62,993 nt of DNA from an uncultured Verrucomicrobiota bacterium. Its GTDB lineage: Bacteria; Verrucomicrobiota; Verrucomicrobiia; Opitutales; Opitutaceae. Made by a program: the position numbers and the translations under genes. Position 1 is the stretch's first letter. Each line of letters begins with the position of its first letter. This document shows, piece by piece, positions 6,458-60,528 of this stretch. Below the pieces are notes generated by a model. It did not search any database. It was not told where the DNA came from and saw nothing but the letters and a program-made list of their open reading frames with translations. The stretch lies in NCBI GenBank assembly GCA_903906135.1, contig CAIVJE010000003.1, positions 1-62,993 of the forward strand. Direction: 5' to 3'.

Positions 6458-6924
6458 TTTTGGGGCCAGGTCTTCGCTCCGAAGTTCTTTGATCCCAAGG
6501 CGCGGGTAATGCCGCGCCCGCTAAAGATAGTTCGGAGAGGAAAGTCCGGACACCACAGGGCAGGATTCCCCGCGAAAGAGGGGGCGCGACGCTTCAAGGC
6601 GTCGTGACGGATAGTGTCACAGAGAATATACCGCCTGAGGCGATTCACCGCAAGGTGAGGCGCTGAAGGTAAGGGTGAAAAGGTGGGGTAAGAGCCCACC
6701 GCGCCGAAAGTAATGACGGCGGCACGAAAAACCCAATCCGGTGCAAGACTAAATAGGGGACTCGGTGGCCCGTCGGATAGTCCCGGGTTAGTCGCACCCC
6801 AGCGTGTTCGGCGCAAGTCGAGCAACGGTGGGGCTGGTCACTTTCGGGTGGCCTGAGAGAAATGAAGATCACGTCGCATTAATACCGCGGCGGACAGAAT
6901 TCGGCTTATCGGCCCCAAAACTAA
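6454..6924 (+). ncRNA. rnpB: RNase P RNA, bacterial type A
   Basis: The catalytic RNA of ribonuclease P, which trims the 5' leaders of tRNA precursors. The universally conserved blocks are present: GAGGAAAGTCCGGACACCAC near 6535-6555, the GGTAAGAGCCCACCG region near 6687-6702, the GTGCAAGAC segment near 6741, and the 3' block with AGAGAAATGAAGATCAC near 6855 followed by ACAGAATTCGGCTTATCGG. The ends form a perfect 14-bp P1 helix, 6454-6467 pairing with 6911-6924. The mature ends may be a few bases inside these limits. At about 460 nucleotides it is longer than the E. coli RNA (377), from extended helices such as the GC-rich arm near 6570-6610. A terminator follows. Confidence 0.95.
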
Positions 6925-30629: not shown

Positions 30630-30719
30630 TGGCGGAGAGGGAGGGATTCGAACCCCCGGTAGGCTTGCGCCTACACGTGCTTTCCAAGCACGCGCATTCG
30701 ACCACTCTGCCACCTCTCC
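30630..30719 (-). tRNA. tRNA-Ser (anticodon GGA)
   Basis: Reading the minus strand, GGAGAGG and CCTCTCC form the acceptor stem, with G discriminator and an encoded CCA. The anticodon arm is CGTGC-TTGGAAA-GCACG with anticodon GGA (reads UCC/UCU). A long variable arm, TAGGC-GCAA-GCCTA, confirms serine. The T-arm has GGTTCGAATCC. The gene is 90 bases with CCA and is divergent from nuoB. Confidence 0.97.
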
Positions 30720-52321: not shown

Positions 52322-52402
52322 GCCTCGGGTGCGGCCCTCGGGGCTTGAGTTGGTCGGCAGCCAAGCAAGCTTTTTGGGCATAACGCGTCGGAGATTTTTT
52401 TG

Positions 52403-53323
52403 ATGTTTTCACTTTTTAAGAAATTTAAAGATGGGTTGCATAAGACCGTTGCGGCGCTGGCGACGAAAACACATAATCTCTTTGGCGGGCGAAAAATTGA
52501 TACCGCATCGCTGGCTGAATTAGAGGAGGCGCTGTATACGGCTGATTTTGGGGTCGAGACGACGACGGAAATTTTGGCTGAAATTAAAGCTGCCTACCGC
52601 AAAGATCCTGAGCTCAAAGGGCAGCAAGCGGCGAGTATTGGGGCCGCGGTGCTCCGGCGGGTGTTGGCCGGGGCTGAGGGCAAGTTGCCTTCAGTCATTC
52701 AAAAACCTGCGGTTATTTGTTTAATTGGGGTTAATGGCTCGGGCAAGACGACCACCACCGCCAAGCTAGCACATAAGTTAAAAAATGACGGCCAGACCGT
52801 AATCGTCGCTGCCTGTGATACCTTTCGGGCGGCAGCGGTGGAGCAATTAAAAAGCTGGGCCGAGCGTCTGCAGATCGAAATTGTCGCTAGCCATACCGGC
52901 GCGGATTCTGCCGCCGTGGCCTATGATGCTTGGCAAGCGGCTAAGGCGCGCGGTCACGATTGGCTCATCGTCGACACGGCGGGCCGATTGCATACCAAGG
53001 GGAATTTATTGGAGGAATTAGCTAAAATTCGGCGCGTGCTGCAGAAACATGATCTGACCGCGCCCCAACATCGCTGGCTGGTCGTCGATGGCAGCTTAGG
53101 GGCTAACTCCATTGAGCAGGCCAAGGTGTTTCACCAGAGCTTCGGGCTGACTGGTCTCGTGGTGACTAAATTAGACGGCACCAGTCGAGGCGGTGCGCTG
53201 GCGGGAATTTACCGACAATTGAAAATCCCTATTTATTTTATCGGATTAGGGGAGCAGCCCGATGACCTGCAGCCTTTTTCCATTGAGCATTATGCGCGGG
53301 CTGTTTTTGGTCTGGAAGCATGA
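52403..53323 (+). CDS. ftsY: Signal recognition particle receptor FtsY
   Basis: A 306-residue SRP GTPase that receives ribosome-SRP complexes at the membrane. G1 is GVNGSGKTTTTAKLA, then DTFRAAAVEQLKSWAER, DTAGRLHTKGNL and TKLDGTSRGGALAGIY, and the end GEQPDDLQPF. The acidic A domain present in E. coli FtsY is missing; only the short amphipathic start MFSLFKKFKDGLHKT remains for membrane contact. The ATG at 52403 is chosen over an adjacent TTG; GGAG at 52390 is a plausible ribosome-binding site. Confidence 0.95.
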   Translation: MFSLFKKFKDGLHKTVAALATKTHNLFGGRKIDTASLAELEEALYTADFGVETTTEILAEIKAAYRKDPELKGQQAASIGAAVLRRVLAGAEGKLPSVIQKPAVICLIGVNGSGKTTTTAKLAHKLKNDGQTVIVAACDTFRAAAVEQLKSWAERLQIEIVASHTGADSAAVAYDAWQAAKARGHDWLIVDTAGRLHTKGNLLEELAKIRRVLQKHDLTAPQHRWLVVDGSLGANSIEQAKVFHQSFGLTGLVVTKLDGTSRGGALAGIYRQLKIPIYFIGLGEQPDDLQPFSIEHYARAVFGLEA

Positions 53324-53789: not shown

Positions 53790-55874
53790 TTAGAAGTTCA
53801 AGCGCACGCCAACTGCCATGCCGCGGCCCGGCAGCGGGGCGATGTCTTTAAGAAAGGAGGTGCTGATGCGGGCATCTTGATTGGTTAGATTAGAACCGCG
53901 GACGAAAAATTCCCACTCGGTATGCGCTTGGGTAAAGCGGTAGCTGGCGTCGACGCTGACCAAAGTATAGCCGTCAGTGGTGCTTTCATCAGGTGAGGCC
54001 CGCTCTTGCTGGAACGAGTGGCGCAGGCTGGCCCCGAGGTTCCAAGGACCGCTGGTATAGCGCAGCGTGGCCCCAAGGCGAAACGGGGGAATCCGCGGGA
54101 GCGGCTCGTCATCCGTGGTTTGCTGGGCGTGAACATAGTCTGCACTGAGATCCAGATGCAGGTGCTGCTCCTGCGCATCATGAAGATGCAGCGAGACCTC
54201 GGCCTCACCGCCGTAGAAAAGCGCATCCCGAGCGATGAATTGATAGATGGGCAGAAATCCGTCGTTAGGTGGAACGGGATAGCGTAATAAATCCCCAGTC
54301 GCTTCATCGAAGTAGCTGGTGGGGTCTTTTTGCTCGAAGATATAATTTTTAAATTGGTTAACAAAGGCGCCGATCGAGCCCGTCGCAAAGCCCGTTCGCT
54401 TACGCAGCGTGAGGTCGAGGCCGAGCGATTTTTCCTTACCAAGGGCAGTCGAACCGATTTCATAGGCTCCCGTGCCGCCATGCGGACCGTTCGAGAATAT
54501 CTCCTGGGCCACCGGCAGGCGTTCAGAGAAGGCGAGGGAGAAGCCTAAGGAATAATCTTTGGCCGGATAATAAACTGCGCCCGCCGACAGGCTCACGCCC
54601 TGATCAGAGCATTTTTCGCCGGTGGTAGCGGCATAGCCATGGTAAGCAGGTAAAAATTTATTAACGGTCCCGAGTGTGATGCTTTGCATCTCATAGCGTC
54701 CGCCAAATTGCAGCGAGAGTTGCGGGTGGAGTTGGTAGGATTCTAGAAAGAAAAGCGCGTGATTATAGGATAAGGTTGGCGGGGTAACTACCTCCGCCCC
54801 CACGGCAGAGAAATCACCGCGGGAAGTTTGGAGCCCTACTGTGCCGGTGAGGGCGCCACGGTCTTGTTGCGCTAATTCAAGCCGGCCTTCGTAGGCTTTA
54901 TTTTTGAAGGTGGTATTGGGTTCACCGGTGGAGGCATCGATTTCAGCGTGAGTGTAATGGGCGAGACCAAAGCGGAATTTAGCCGATTTAAAACCATCGC
55001 CCAGTCGCGTAAGTTCCGCCCGCAGATCGGCCCGCTGCTGTTTCATATCAATTAGAATCGGCTCGCCCACCGGCACGCCGTAGATGGTGGCGTATTCGCT
55101 CACGGCTAAACCGAGACTGCCCTTGGGTCCAAAGCGGGTGCCGCCGACGGAGACGCTTTGGGCGGAGCGGGCGCTGTTGACCAAGGTGCCTCGATCGGCG
55201 GGATGAGCCCGATCGGCATAGCCGGGGATGCTGACATCGTCAGTCTCAGAGCGCAGTCCGTTGATTTGCAGCGCGTAGGTTTGGTTACCAGCCCCGAGCG
55301 CGATCACCCCCGTGCGCTCGTTGGCGGCCGAGTCGTAGCGAAATTCTGCGCGGCTGGGGCGAGGTTCACTCGTCGCGGCAGTTGGGATGCGATTATCGAT
55401 CACATTGACGACGCCGCCCACGGCTGAGCTGCCGTAGAGCAGGGTAGCTGGGCCGCGTAATACTTCGATGCGATCGACCAACAGTGGTTCGACGCTGACA
55501 TTATGGTCAGGGCTGACGCTGGAGGCGTCGAGTGAGCCGACGCCGTTGTCGAGCATGCGCACGCGATCGCCGCCAAGCCCGCGAATAATGGGGCGGCTAG
55601 CGCCCGGACCGTAATAGGTGGCATTGACACCAGGTGTGTTGATGAGCGTGTCGCCTAGAGTGGCTGCAATATTTCGGCGGAGTTGATCGTTCATCAGGAC
55701 GGCGGTCCCTTGGGCGAGGTCGAAAGCAGATTTAGGATCGGGGCCAACGCTCACGACCATAACTTCAAGGTTGATGGGATGATCGGGTTTATCGCTTGAT
55801 CGGCTGGGTGCAATTTGGGCGGAAGCCAAACCAGCAAGAATAGAAAATAAGGTGAAGGAACAGAAAGGTTTCAT
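53790..55874 (-). CDS. TonB-dependent outer-membrane receptor, ZnuD-like
   Basis: A 694-residue 22-strand barrel receptor. The signal peptide is MKPFCSFTLFSILAGLASAQ; the plug has RPIIRGLGGDRVRMLDNGVG, SLDASSVSPDHNVSVEPLLV and RIEVLRGPATLLYGSSAVGG followed by VVNVIDNRIP. These blocks are close to the zinc/haem receptor ZnuD and its relatives. The C-terminus ends GVRLNF, with the terminal Phe that BamA recognises. It lies 100 bases downstream of a gene for a His-rich exported protein on the same strand, which supports metal uptake. Zinc, copper or a metallophore are the likely substrates; the sequence does not decide. Confidence 0.88.
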   Translation of the reverse strand: MKPFCSFTLFSILAGLASAQIAPSRSSDKPDHPINLEVMVVSVGPDPKSAFDLAQGTAVLMNDQLRRNIAATLGDTLINTPGVNATYYGPGASRPIIRGLGGDRVRMLDNGVGSLDASSVSPDHNVSVEPLLVDRIEVLRGPATLLYGSSAVGGVVNVIDNRIPTAATSEPRPSRAEFRYDSAANERTGVIALGAGNQTYALQINGLRSETDDVSIPGYADRAHPADRGTLVNSARSAQSVSVGGTRFGPKGSLGLAVSEYATIYGVPVGEPILIDMKQQRADLRAELTRLGDGFKSAKFRFGLAHYTHAEIDASTGEPNTTFKNKAYEGRLELAQQDRGALTGTVGLQTSRGDFSAVGAEVVTPPTLSYNHALFFLESYQLHPQLSLQFGGRYEMQSITLGTVNKFLPAYHGYAATTGEKCSDQGVSLSAGAVYYPAKDYSLGFSLAFSERLPVAQEIFSNGPHGGTGAYEIGSTALGKEKSLGLDLTLRKRTGFATGSIGAFVNQFKNYIFEQKDPTSYFDEATGDLLRYPVPPNDGFLPIYQFIARDALFYGGEAEVSLHLHDAQEQHLHLDLSADYVHAQQTTDDEPLPRIPPFRLGATLRYTSGPWNLGASLRHSFQQERASPDESTTDGYTLVSVDASYRFTQAHTEWEFFVRGSNLTNQDARISTSFLKDIAPLPGRGMAVGVRLNF

Positions 55875-55974
55875 AGGCAAAGTCAGAATTCGTGAAGGCA
55901 AGACAGCCGGTCGGCCGAATGGCTGGACAGGCTTTAACGCGGCCGCAATGACAGCGCCGCGGGACGAACTTAAC

Positions 55975-56298
55975 TTAGCAGAGAGGCGGACCGCAGGCCG
56001 GGGGCAAGCGATCAGTGGTCACCCTCAAGAGAGCCAGCGGGCTACGCGCTAGAACCGTGAAAATTAGCTGGGGCGTAAAAATTAAGTCGACCTCAACGGC
56101 GGTCGTTTCCACGCCATGGCTAAACAGGGTGATCGCGCACGTGTGATTGGCTTCATCGCCGTCGTGGTGCAGTGGCGCGTGCAGTTGCGGACTGACATTA
56201 AGCAGACCGAGCAGCCAAATCGTTAAAGCACAGAACGCCGCGAGCCAGCGGGAAGCTGGCATGGGTAGCGGGTGGGACTGAGCGGCGGAGGCAGACAT
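55975..56298 (-). CDS. Small exported His-rich protein, possible metal binder
   Basis: 107 residues with a hydrophobic segment (about 17-35) that is either a signal anchor or a signal peptide. After it comes a cluster of possible metal ligands, QLHAPLHHDGDEANHTC: His40, His44, His45, Asp46, Asp48, His52 and Cys54, then His61. The end is LPPACGPPLC. It precedes the ZnuD-like receptor on the same strand by 100 bases. I recall similar small ORFs beside such receptors in verrucomicrobia. A periplasmic metal chaperone is a guess from composition and context. Confidence 0.7.
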   Translation of the reverse strand: MSASAAQSHPLPMPASRWLAAFCALTIWLLGLLNVSPQLHAPLHHDGDEANHTCAITLFSHGVETTAVEVDLIFTPQLIFTVLARSPLALLRVTTDRLPPACGPPLC

Positions 56299-56429
56299 GG
56301 CGCGAGGTTTCTCTTTCGTATCTTACTCTATTCGTCAAGCGCGCGCAGCAGAGCCCAGTCGTTTTGATAAGGAAGAGGCGGCGGTCGCGCTGAGCTCCAG
56401 TGGTGGCCATGGTCGCTTTAAATTATGCA

Positions 56430-56650
56430 GGTCCTTGCGGCACCTGAAATAAGGCGTTTTGCGTGGTCCGCTAAAAACCTAAAATGTGGTTTTATAGCAG
56501 TGCAGTGATCGACTTTGGCAACAAAGGAGAAAGCTGCTCAAAGGGGTTCGCGGGTACTTGACTGGCCCGTTGTGTGCACGCGAACCCCGATACTTTTGCA
56601 GGTGGCCGGCTACTAAATAAAAAAGGCGCAGTAAATTCTGCGCCTTTTTT
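56430..56650 (+). ncRNA. Candidate structured small RNA gene
   Basis: The region 56299-56667 holds no protein gene. On the plus strand it contains, in order: a closing helix GGCACCTG (56439-56446) pairing with CAGGTGGCC (56599-56607) with one bulge; a nine-bp hairpin at 56471-56497; a small hairpin CTTTG-GCAA-CAAAG with GNRA loop (56513-56526), flanked by AGCAG/CTGCT; a strong 10-bp stem GGGGTTCGCG (56543-56552) with CGCGAACCCC (56579-56588); and a terminator. A TTAAAT -10-like box is at 56418-56423. Flanking genes point left on both sides, so a plus-strand transcript would be independent. It does not match tmRNA, SRP RNA or any riboswitch I know; 6S RNA is possible but not supported by a clear central bubble. 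Confidence 0.5.
56619..56650. terminator. Bidirectional rho-independent terminator
   Basis: AAAAAAGGCGCAG pairs with CTGCGCCTTTTTT over a six-base loop. It ends the POT transporter transcript on the minus strand and the candidate small RNA on the plus strand. Confidence 0.92.
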
Positions 56651-56667
56651 ATTGGATTAAGATGCGT

Positions 56668-58179
56668 TCAGCGCACGCCGCCCATGAGTTTTTTAACCCA
56701 AGGGACTAAGGCAAAGAGCACGAGGGTGCAGGCGCCTACGGCAAGCGCTTGGTGCCAGAAAAAAGTAGCGAGTTGGTCGGCGTTGTCGCTTTTGAACTCC
56801 CCCGCCAGCACCCCGGCGAGTTTATTGCCCAACGCGGCGGCGAGAAACCAAATGCCCATCACCATGCCGAGCAGACGCTGCGGCGCGAGTTTGGTCATGG
56901 TGGATAGACCCACCGGGCTAAGCAGCATCTCGCCGACCGTTTGCAGGAAAAAAAGACCCACGAGCCAGAGCGGCCCGACTTTTCCTTCGGCAGTTAATTT
57001 GGCTGCCGGTACCATCAGAACGAAGGAGAGGGCTACGAACAACAGGCCGAGGACAAATTTCATCGGGCTGGAAGGTTGTTTCGGTCCGAGGGTGATCCAA
57101 AGAAAGGCGAAGACTGGCGCGAGTAAGATTACCCAAATAGAGTTAACCGATTGCCACCACGAGGAGGGGAACGATTGGCCGAGGATTTCGTTCCGCGTTA
57201 ATTTATCGGCAAACAGAGAGATGGTCGAGCCCGTCTGTTCGAAGATGGCCCAAAAAATTTCGGCGGCGAAAAAGAAAACCAGAATAGCGGCGATACGTTT
57301 GCTGTCGGCCGTTGGCTTGAAGGAAAAAAATAAAATTGCGGCGATTTGCAGGGCGAAGAGAACATAAACGAGCGCGGGATATTGATCGCTCGCTTTCATC
57401 GCCGCAATCAGCGCCAGCGAACCAAGGGCGACGAGCGCTAGTTTACCCCAGGGGCGGTCATGATTTTTCCCGGTCACCGGCGCGTGACCGACCTGAGCGA
57501 GCCGCTCGCGCTGCAGCACATACACCACCAAACCGAAGGTCATGCCGACGCCGGCGGCGGCGAAGCCCCAGTGCCAACTATGGACAGGATCAAGGCCCCA
57601 GCTACTCAGTTGCGCTTTCCAGCTGGCGCTCTGGGCGAGGTAACCGGTGATGAGTGGAGCGAGAAAGGCCCCGATATTGATGCCCATATAGAAAATGGAG
57701 AAGCCGGCGTCGCGGCGCTCATCGGTCGGGCTATAAAGGCTGCCGACCATCGTTGAGATGTTGGGCTTGAGCAGGCCGGTTCCGAGGGCAATGAGAACGA
57801 GGCCAGCGAAAAATGTACTTTGGGCGCTGAAGGCCATGGCGTAGTGACCACAGGCGATGATGATGCCGCCGATTAATACTGAACGCCGGGCGCCGATAAA
57901 ATTATCAGCGATAAACCCACCTAGAATGGAGAGCAGATAAACGCTCATCGTGTAGGTGCCATAAATTGCCGCCGCTTTTTTGGTGTCGTAGCCAAGGCCG
58001 CCGTCGGCCGCTGTCTTCACCATAAAAAGAATGAGCAAGGCCCGCATGCCGTAGTAGGAGAATCGTTCCCACATTTCGGTGAAGAAGAGGGTGGTGAGGC
58101 CGCGCGGGTGACCACCGATACCACCGGTGTCCATGACGGAGGGGGCTGGGGATTCTGCGCTAGGAATGGAAGAAGACAT
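56668..58179 (-). CDS. POT/PTR2-family proton-coupled peptide transporter
   Basis: A 503-residue transporter with about 14 membrane helices. The ExxER motif is EMWERFSYYGMRALLILFMV, and FIGARRSVLIGG, GTGLLKPNISTMVGSLY and GFSIFYMGINIGAFLAPLI are POT blocks (PTR2 signature). FVFLAAA-type C-terminal helices end in WVKKLMGGV. It takes up di- and tripeptides with protons. It is a single gene between two TonB receptors, with a strong terminator after it. Confidence 0.94.
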   Translation of the reverse strand: MSSSIPSAESPAPSVMDTGGIGGHPRGLTTLFFTEMWERFSYYGMRALLILFMVKTAADGGLGYDTKKAAAIYGTYTMSVYLLSILGGFIADNFIGARRSVLIGGIIIACGHYAMAFSAQSTFFAGLVLIALGTGLLKPNISTMVGSLYSPTDERRDAGFSIFYMGINIGAFLAPLITGYLAQSASWKAQLSSWGLDPVHSWHWGFAAAGVGMTFGLVVYVLQRERLAQVGHAPVTGKNHDRPWGKLALVALGSLALIAAMKASDQYPALVYVLFALQIAAILFFSFKPTADSKRIAAILVFFFAAEIFWAIFEQTGSTISLFADKLTRNEILGQSFPSSWWQSVNSIWVILLAPVFAFLWITLGPKQPSSPMKFVLGLLFVALSFVLMVPAAKLTAEGKVGPLWLVGLFFLQTVGEMLLSPVGLSTMTKLAPQRLLGMVMGIWFLAAALGNKLAGVLAGEFKSDNADQLATFFWHQALAVGACTLVLFALVPWVKKLMGGVR

Positions 58180-58272: not shown

Positions 58273-60528
58273 TTAAAATTCCCATTCCGCCCCAACGTAA
58301 AAATTACGCCGCGGGGCGGGATCGATTCCATCCGGCCGAATGCGGCTATAATAATCTTCATCAAGGAGATTATTGACACCGGCAATCAAGCGAAGCGGGG
58401 CGTTCGGGACACGCCACTCCGCGGTTAGGTCCCAAACAGCATACGCGGGCACGTAACGCTGTGCGGTGTTGCCATCATCTGCATAGTTATCAGCCGATAG
58501 GGTTCCCGTCAGCGCAAGTTTGAGCGCATCGATGCGCGTGTAGACGAGTCCAAGCCGAATGGTGTGGTCTGGGGCATATTGCGGCGTCTTACCCGCCGTA
58601 GCTCCTTCCTTGAATTTTGCATCAAGGAATAGCGCATTGGCATAGATTTTTAGCGCGGCTGGCTTACTCGCGGTAGCTTGAAGGGCAAACAGGTCATAAC
58701 TAATAGCTAACTCAGTGCCTTGGTGTACGGCTCGGCCCACATTACTGACGGAGGTGAGTCCATTGGGGAGGGTGATACTGCCGATTTGGTTGTAGAATTT
58801 AAGGTAAAATATACTGGCATCAAAGATGAGGCCCCGCGCGGGCTGAGCGCGGTAGCCTAATTCATATTGCACTGCGCGACCCTCTTTGAGGTCGGCGTTC
58901 ACAACGGTCGTGGCTCCATTGGGAACGGCCTCAGTAAATACCATTGGTCGGTAACTTTGCGCGGCGTTGGCGTACCATTCGGCTTGGTGCGGCAGTTGGC
59001 CAGCGGCTCCGAGGCCAAAAAGGGGCAGGGCGGTACGTTCATCCCGCTGCTGCAGGGAGGTTGCCGTGCGGGCGACATTAATGATTTCACGCACGTTCTG
59101 GTCGACGAATTCAAAACGAACCCCCGGCGTTAGACTGAACGCACCAAAACGGAACAAGTTTTCGGCAAAAACGGGTGTATATAATATTTCCCGCTCGGAT
59201 TTCAGCCGCACGGATCCGCTGGTGGCGTCGGGGGAAGTTCCCCGTGAGTCAGTCCGCGGAGATTGGCTATAGTAAAACTGTGCTCCCGCTGTGAATACAT
59301 GACCGTTAGCTCCACCCCAATCGAGGCGCCCCCGGGTTTCAGCCCCGAATTGATCGAATTGCTGGACTTCAATCGTATTGGTAAGAGCTGCGATATTTGT
59401 CGGTAGGGTGCCAAACCCACCCCCTCCCTGCCGGCGGCTGGCGCGCGTGTAATCGATCTGCCAAATGCGACCGACCAAGGTACCTTGGGAGAAATCTCGC
59501 TCCCAAACCACGGAGCGGGCCTGCCGACGAAGGTTAAAGCGATCGTAGAGTCGCGAAGGCGTTGCCCTTTCCGTGGAATAATTGACCGTGCCGGGTCCAC
59601 TGGCAAAGGTAAGCCCCCCAGGCTCCCCGTGCTCCTCGGAATAAGACTCGGCGCTAAAAATAATTCGCGAGTGGGTGTCGGCGCCGATTACAAGTTTAGC
59701 TTGGTAATCGTCTAACTGATAGTCGCTATTGGCGGAGCGGATGCCGTTTGATTCGCGATGATTATAATAACCGTAATAGCCTAATGGTCCCGTAGTGCCG
59801 TCGATATAATTGAAGGTGGCGTAATAATTTTCGCTGCCGAAGGTCTGCAAGGTGCTGGCACCTAGTGCAGTGTCGCTGCGCGGGCGATGGGTTACGTAAT
59901 TCAGTGCCCCGCCAGGTTGGGGGCCGTACATCAACGCGGCACCACCGCGGGTGAATTCGATGCGATCGATCGTATCGAGAGGGGGCACATAATACGCCTC
60001 TGGGTAGCCAAATTGATCGGCATGGATGGGAATGCCATCTTTCAGCACTTGGGTGAACTGAGCCCGGTGAGGCGCTAGCCCGCGGTAGCCTATGCTGATG
60101 AGGGGTGACGTCTCCTCACTCAAAATTAGGCCGGGCGCTTGGGCCAGGGCCTGCCGATAATTATTGCCCGTGATGCGGGGTAGCTCATCAAAATCGAGCA
60201 CCGTGGTTTTTTTCCCGACATTGATTTTCACCCCTTGTGTCGCCGGTAGAAATGGCCCCTGAATATAATGATCCGTTTCTGCTTCGGCTTCGATACGATA
60301 GGTTGGGAGAACCATAGCCCCATCAGGCAGGATAGCGTCAGAGGTCACTTCACTCTGGAGTAATGGCCGAGACAACAAGGTGACAGTTGCCAAGCAGAAT
60401 AACAGGTGCCTCGCCTGTATTACATTCTGCGGGTTAGGCAGTAACGTATCGAATCGCAGCCTATTTGAACGGATTTTTCTGCAAATTAGGCCAGTTAAAA
60501 TACGGCATATAGTATGGCAAACAATCAT
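58273..60528 (-). CDS. TonB-dependent receptor, FecA/siderophore-like
   Basis: About 751 residues from the ATG at 60528. The plug domain has KKTTVLDFDELPRITGNNYR, QALAQAPGLILSEETSPLIS, GYRGLAPHRAQFTQVLKDGI and RIEFTRGGAALMYGPQPGGA with LNYVTHRP; the barrel ends FYVGAEWEF. IGYRGLxPHR and PIHADQFGYPEAYY resemble Fe-citrate/siderophore receptors. The start is uncertain: the signal-like segment HLLFCLATVTLLS lies about 40 residues after this ATG, an unusually long N-region, and no closer ATG, GTG or TTG exists before it. The frame is open to 60660, but that would overlap aroB. Iron-type substrate is inferred from resemblance. Confidence 0.82.
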   Translation of the reverse strand: MIVCHTICRILTGLICRKIRSNRLRFDTLLPNPQNVIQARHLLFCLATVTLLSRPLLQSEVTSDAILPDGAMVLPTYRIEAEAETDHYIQGPFLPATQGVKINVGKKTTVLDFDELPRITGNNYRQALAQAPGLILSEETSPLISIGYRGLAPHRAQFTQVLKDGIPIHADQFGYPEAYYVPPLDTIDRIEFTRGGAALMYGPQPGGALNYVTHRPRSDTALGASTLQTFGSENYYATFNYIDGTTGPLGYYGYYNHRESNGIRSANSDYQLDDYQAKLVIGADTHSRIIFSAESYSEEHGEPGGLTFASGPGTVNYSTERATPSRLYDRFNLRRQARSVVWERDFSQGTLVGRIWQIDYTRASRRQGGGGFGTLPTNIAALTNTIEVQQFDQFGAETRGRLDWGGANGHVFTAGAQFYYSQSPRTDSRGTSPDATSGSVRLKSEREILYTPVFAENLFRFGAFSLTPGVRFEFVDQNVREIINVARTATSLQQRDERTALPLFGLGAAGQLPHQAEWYANAAQSYRPMVFTEAVPNGATTVVNADLKEGRAVQYELGYRAQPARGLIFDASIFYLKFYNQIGSITLPNGLTSVSNVGRAVHQGTELAISYDLFALQATASKPAALKIYANALFLDAKFKEGATAGKTPQYAPDHTIRLGLVYTRIDALKLALTGTLSADNYADDGNTAQRYVPAYAVWDLTAEWRVPNAPLRLIAGVNNLLDEDYYSRIRPDGIDPAPRRNFYVGAEWEF

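Follow-up and report, generated by a model that had tools for sequence, protein, structure and literature searches.

The intergenic DNA around positions 56430–56650 of the window, the 62,993-nucleotide stretch of an uncultured Opitutaceae bacterium analyzed here, almost certainly encodes a real structured RNA, and comparison of related sequences points with equal assurance to the plus strand as the functional one. The best explanation, held with about even confidence, is a new family of free-standing, probably trans-acting small structured RNA read from the plus strand. As far as Rfam 15 and the literature searches made here show, the family is uncatalogued, and among the genomes sampled it is restricted to part of the family Opitutaceae (Verrucomicrobiota). 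The RNA lies in a gap (56411–56667) with minus-strand ORFs on one side and a minus-strand POT transporter on the other. No ORF of at least 60 amino acids is listed between 56410 and 56668, in keeping with the gene-free gap noticed in an earlier reading of this DNA (hereafter the preliminary description). A hidden small protein was considered and rejected: the longest stop-free stretch is 29 to 49 codons across the homologs, and the linker between the first two hairpins varies freely. The parts of the locus and its main neighbors are as follows.

52400–53323, plus strand: ftsY (SRP receptor GTPase), with Pfam SRP54 domains; a frequent upstream neighbor in the homologs
56442–56455, plus strand: P1, a short hairpin (CCU/AGG) with the sequence ACCUGAAAUAAGGC; a near-palindromic box, ACCTRAATTTAGGT in many relatives
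56456–56505, plus strand: linker, in the alignments variable in sequence and fairly constant in length (∼50 nt)
56506–56533, plus strand: P2 hairpin, with 12 aligned positions per side, a GCAA (GNRA) loop at 56518–56521, and covariation
56543–56588, plus strand: P3 hairpin, with 18 model pairs, the hexaloop UGGCCC at 56563–56568, and covariation
56593–56597, plus strand: conserved CUUUU tract after P3, a possible 3′ end of the RNA
56619–56650, readable on both strands: terminator hairpin with an A-run and a T-run; read on the minus strand, it lies just after the transporter stop
56668–58179, minus strand: POT/PTR2 peptide transporter (Pfam PF00854, E = 1.8e-68), convergent with the RNA

A BLASTN search over 57 genomes, that of the window included, revealed a conserved core (56539–56597) in many genomes of the same genus. 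In the 16 homologs aligned first, the distance from ACCUGAA to the end of P3 was 144–149 nt. The final alignment comprised 29 full-length homologs, one from each of 29 genomes, of which 17 belong to the genus of the window and 12 to three other genera. Two checks were independent of any fitted structure, a MAFFT alignment of the 16 homologs and a separate MAFFT pair scan. In the former, 11 of 32 pairs showed double-sided changes in one or more sequences, and RNAalifold predicted P1, P2, and P3. In the latter, an exhaustive scan returned a 14-pair P3 (score 3.87) and a 12-pair P2 (2.56), and the next candidate, which overlaps P3, scored 0.76. In the alignment of all 29 homologs, which was fitted to a plus-strand model and whose pair counts lean toward that model, 18 of 32 pairs had changed on both sides, compared with a shuffle mean of 9.4, and none of 500 shuffles equaled the observed covariation on any of five measures. 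Standard pairs filled 96.8% of the cells of the model alignment, against at most 60.8% when the partners were slid. Double-sided changes were seen in 6 of 10 pairs of P2 and 12 of 18 pairs of P3, where 98.4% of the cells were paired. The preliminary description had proposed a search for covarying pairs in relatives; the pairing of P2 and P3 is indeed kept there and covaries.

The strand could be judged from the wobble pairs. All model pairs taken together contain 149 G-U cells and 1 A-C cell in the fitted alignment, and A-C is absent from the pair types of the unfitted alignment as well. Because a G-U pair on the plus strand would be an A-C mismatch on the minus strand, this asymmetry indicates that selection acts on the plus-strand RNA, the strand favored from the outset. 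The plus strand of 56425–56655 folds to −100.7 kcal/mol, compared with a shuffle mean of −69.5 (z = −7.15), and none of 200 shuffles was as good. The minus strand of the same region also folds well (z = −6.18), because the main hairpins are near-palindromic.

P3 corresponds to the 10-bp stem GGGGUUCGCG/CGCGAACCCC (56543–56588) seen in the single sequence and now held by covariation. Its hexaloop, UGGCCC, is the same in 29/29 homologs at five of six positions and in 28/29 at the U. The joiner between P2 and P3 reads GUGACCAA in 23 of the 29 and differs in six, the window copy included. This structured loop and the two sides of the lower P2 stem are where conservation is concentrated. The P2 loop is a GNRA tetraloop in 16 of 29 homologs. 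P2 of the window copy is a weak example, standard pairing being absent from 4 of its 12 positions. In P1, the sequence ACCU(G/A)AAUUUAGG recurs in many homologs, and CCU and AGG are invariant in all 29, so that the three core pairs give no covariation evidence either way.

Other helices of the preliminary description did not survive the comparison. Of its two hairpins, the one with the GCAA loop is P2, which covaries; the other, placed in the linker at 56470–56498, is not conserved, since it could be drawn by eye only in L001, L003, and L004 and the pairwise covariation scan of the 29 homologs showed no conserved helix in the linker. The closing helix (CACCUG with CAGGUG plus flanking pairs) can be drawn in the window copy, and L003 and L004 alter its letters without compensation. 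As a further check, the 60 nt that follow P3 were compared with the 5′ end for complementarity, and the longest run was set against a shuffle control. Its mean over the 29 homologs was 4.76 versus 4.64 in shuffles, and p ≤ 0.05 was reached only in L007 and L016 (window copy, p = 0.065). Judged by these alignments, the conserved core is smaller than originally drawn.

Transcription from the plus strand would start near 56430, and would stop at one of two places, the U-tract that follows P3 (∼56597) or the terminator (∼56650), giving an RNA of ∼165 or 220 nt. A sigma-70-type promoter consensus was not found at the window locus, nor did a shared promoter motif emerge by eye upstream of the homologs. 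Downstream, a C/T-TTT tract occurs within 16 nt of P3 in 24 of 29 homologs, and a plus-strand terminator within 120 nt of P3 in 21 of 29, compared with 2 of 116 control stretches. Seven of the eight homologs in which the scan returned no plus-strand terminator have a U-tract after P3. In the window, the hairpin at 56619–56650, with its A-run and T-run, agrees with the bidirectional terminator of the preliminary description. A stricter consensus scan of 56300–56700 returned none (shuffles, 0.7); we take the terminator stem to absorb the T-run there. At L042, L045, L047, L048, and L049, in a genus that includes Candidatus Didemnitutus genomes, a second hairpin without a plus-strand T-run is present. 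It looks like the transporter's own terminator, and given the missing T-run, the RNA at these loci probably ends after P3.

The distribution of the RNA is narrow and patchy. A first covariance model gave matches in 21 of 200 sampled family genomes (4 of 49 genera) and, with its stricter filters, did not find the RNA in the remaining 179 Opitutaceae genomes; that it was not found in so many, nor in four genomes of the window's own genus (see below), indicates that the RNA is not essential across Opitutaceae. Matches in the order sample (7 of 273 genomes) and in the phylum sample (7 of 387) were all members of Opitutaceae. The family, order, and phylum searches, each of more than 40 genomes, used the stricter filters and may miss weak relatives. 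A second model, run with laxer filters on 38 near relatives, found the RNA in 17; all of these belong to the window's genus, represented by 21 genomes, and the other four of that genus gave no match. Two of these four, G014 and G018, are ∼99% complete. In G014, the region after ftsY has no model match, and the RNA was therefore lost or never gained there. In every one of the 29 aligned genomes, a single strong match spans the full length. The weak extra matches, apart from one of 23.9 bits in G005, fall on the reverse strand at or around P3.

Divergent copies hidden beside ftsY in other genera were also sought, in 29 of 30 ftsY loci (L184, that of the window, was left out). Only L186 and L187 scored strongly, and both come from genomes in which the RNA had been found before; L187 also gave one 10.3-bit match (E = 0.55). 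The 14-base loop core was searched for in viral contigs, and the matches listed were about those expected by chance for 14 letters and were set aside. A BLASTN match to 56404–56503 of the window (query 5–104; 84% identity) lies at 59833–59932 of contig C112 of genome G002 and lacks P2 and P3; the same genome carries a full copy of the RNA on C117.

The search of the whole window against Rfam 15 at gathering scores returned only RNase P RNA and tRNA elsewhere and none at the locus. A permissive search of 56200–56900 (E up to 5) gave nine matches, each of them due to the terminator hairpin, and in 12 of the 29 homologs (E up to 1), P1–P3 were without a match; the impression that the RNA resembles no known family was therefore upheld. 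One of the candidates considered, STnc40 (RF02057), was rejected: it has a terminator hairpin of nearly identical sequence and scored 35.5 and 31.4 bits against a gathering score of 45, the match covering the terminator only, on both strands. ARAGORN, run for tmRNA in the window, returned tRNA-Ser only. The only match of the genome to bacterial SRP RNA (RF00169) is at C212:6335–6433 (61.8 bits), and the only match to 6S RNA (RF00013) at C119:15180–15361 (55.2 bits), both away from this locus. 6S RNA is similar in length, structured, and free-standing, but it forms one long bulged rod with a central bubble, in contrast to the several separate hairpins seen here. Acido-Lenti-1 and similar orphan motifs are likewise described as lineage-restricted structured RNAs from comparative genomics (PMC2864571), but Acido-Lenti-1 is catalogued (RF01687) and has no match at this locus. 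The new RNA shares with bacterial trans-acting sRNAs an intergenic gene with one full-length match per aligned genome, a predicted length of ∼165–220 nt, hairpins with an exposed conserved loop, and an intrinsic terminator in 21 of 29 copies. It differs from them in its confinement to part of one family, in having no Rfam family, and in coming from a genome with no detected Hfq or ProQ gene.

How such an RNA might act can be sketched from its conserved parts. Acting in trans, P3 would present the near-invariant UGGCCC loop, and the joiner (GUGACCAA in most copies) and the 5′ linker would be exposed; an RNA so arranged would bind something by sequence. By analogy with known sRNAs, contact is likely to be made through the loop and the unpaired joiner. 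As partner, our first choice is a set of mRNAs, at somewhat below even confidence, and the same tentative standing is given to the RNA as a base-pairing regulator; a dedicated protein is the second choice and nearly as probable. Searches for Hfq (PF17209) and ProQ (PF04352), both positive in E. coli, gave no match in this 94.7%-complete genome, which suggests that the protein partner, if any, is probably another one. Complementarity between the window copy and the SRP, 6S, and RNase P RNAs was equaled by 22, 122, and 131 of 200 shuffles, respectively, and these partners were set aside.

The concentration of conservation in the structured P3 loop and the lower P2 stem, together with the failure to detect Hfq or ProQ, could also be read as the mark of a protein-binding RNA, 6S-like or sequestering, in which P2 and P3 dock an RNA-binding protein or RNA polymerase and a protein reads UGGCCC. 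We regard this as possible but less likely than not, since no partner is known, 6S RNA itself is encoded elsewhere in the genome, and the separate hairpins do not resemble the long bulged rod of 6S. A further proposal starts from the self-complementary GGCC core of the loop: in an Opitutaceae-specific regulatory RNA working without Hfq or ProQ, UGGCCC would mediate loop-loop contacts, either in dimers or with an RNA dedicated to it, or else a lineage-specific protein would recognize it. This is improbable on present evidence; if true, it would represent a previously undescribed functional class.

The conservation of P1 (ACCTRAATTTAGGT) may have a different origin from that of P2 and P3. The box is a perfect or near-perfect palindrome in many copies and its three core pairs lack covariation, as might be expected if it were a DNA operator where the RNA gene begins or close by, with P1 forming an RNA helix only in addition or not at all. 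The palindrome with one mismatch allowed had 38 matches in five genomes compared with nine for a reversed control, and 7 of 19 inspected loci without the RNA are intergenic and unexplained. However, a palindromic site is counted on each strand, and the total of 38 includes the RNA loci; seven of the 19 inspected loci fall within long ORFs and five are part of a separate dispersed element, and in the window's own genome, the matches equal the control (four and four). We consider the operator doubtful, and it would leave P2 and P3 untouched. The dispersed element is intergenic and was seen at L241, L244, L245, L246, and L251 (∼1400–1600 of each) in G003, G012, and G016. It shows long-range complementarity of GAGACA/GCGCGGG with CCCGCGC/UGUCUC and a ACCTGAAATTAGGGG-like box, and had no Rfam match at E up to 0.5. 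In G012, one gene encoding an Rce1-like (CAAX protease) domain has a copy of the element on either side.

Whether the structured RNA is a gene of its own or part of a neighboring transcript was judged from the surroundings of the 29 loci, searched by tblastn over ∼1.5 kb on each side (less at contig ends). Pfam names around the window copy are nusB, ftsY, DUF4864, TonB receptor, and POT, with DUF4864, the TonB receptor, and a 107-aa ORF between ftsY and the RNA, and the upstream ORFs that adjoin the RNA are on the minus strand. The TonB-dependent receptor and the 107-aa ORF, which has no Pfam match, lie on the minus strand at 53790–56298, on the RNA side of ftsY and DUF4864. Among the homologs, FtsY is upstream on the same strand within ∼1.5 kb in 16 of 29 loci and out of this range in 13. 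POT is downstream on the opposite strand in 16 loci and upstream in one (L050). DUF4864 and a TonB receptor are each near the RNA in 7 of 29 loci, and relatives of the 107-aa ORF are upstream in eight, including L043 and L051 of other genera. The RNA is thus kept while the neighboring genes change, which argues for an independent, trans-acting gene. With the covariation and the strand asymmetry, this supports the free-standing RNA first suggested for the window, and we hold with good confidence that it is not cis-acting.

A cis element, serving as 3′ UTR, terminator, or antiterminator of the ftsY mRNA on the plus strand or the POT mRNA on the minus strand, appears improbable by comparison. In 7 of 29 loci, 72 to 119 nt separate P1 from the end of an upstream ftsY on the same strand, but the RNA persists in the 13 loci without FtsY within 1.5 kb, and minus-strand genes separate the two in the window. 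The frequent convergent POT gene, with the terminator hairpin just after it, would likewise fit a POT element; 13 of the 29 loci, though, have the RNA but no downstream POT in the examined stretch (in L050, POT is on the other side), and the excess of G-U over A-C, 149 to 1, argues strongly against a selected minus strand. A riboswitch-like leader on the plus strand is very improbable: the next gene is the convergent POT transporter in the window, where, as had been pointed out, no plus-strand gene follows, and in 16 of 29 loci, and a plus-strand terminator follows in 21 of 29, even if a plus-strand ORF starting ∼70 nt after P3 in L054 makes a cis role possible there.

Further RNA motifs were reportedly described in a survey of 2017. 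Those parts of the literature on structured or small RNAs of Verrucomicrobia and Opitutaceae that were covered here contained no description of this RNA, and in the main text of a 2010 survey of 104 motifs, the words for Verrucomicrobia and Opitutus are absent (Weinberg et al.; PMC2864571). Known sRNAs are unevenly spread, the table of one review counting 8 for the PVC group and 345 for Proteobacteria (PMC9029176). With its near-invariant loop, and with no Hfq or ProQ gene detected in the genome, this well-supported RNA family offers a concrete handle on RNA regulation in Verrucomicrobiota, and one that is testable in cultured Lacunisphaera strains. Elsewhere in the window are a class A RNase P RNA (6504–6920) and, on the minus strand, a tRNA-Ser (GGA) at 30633–30719.
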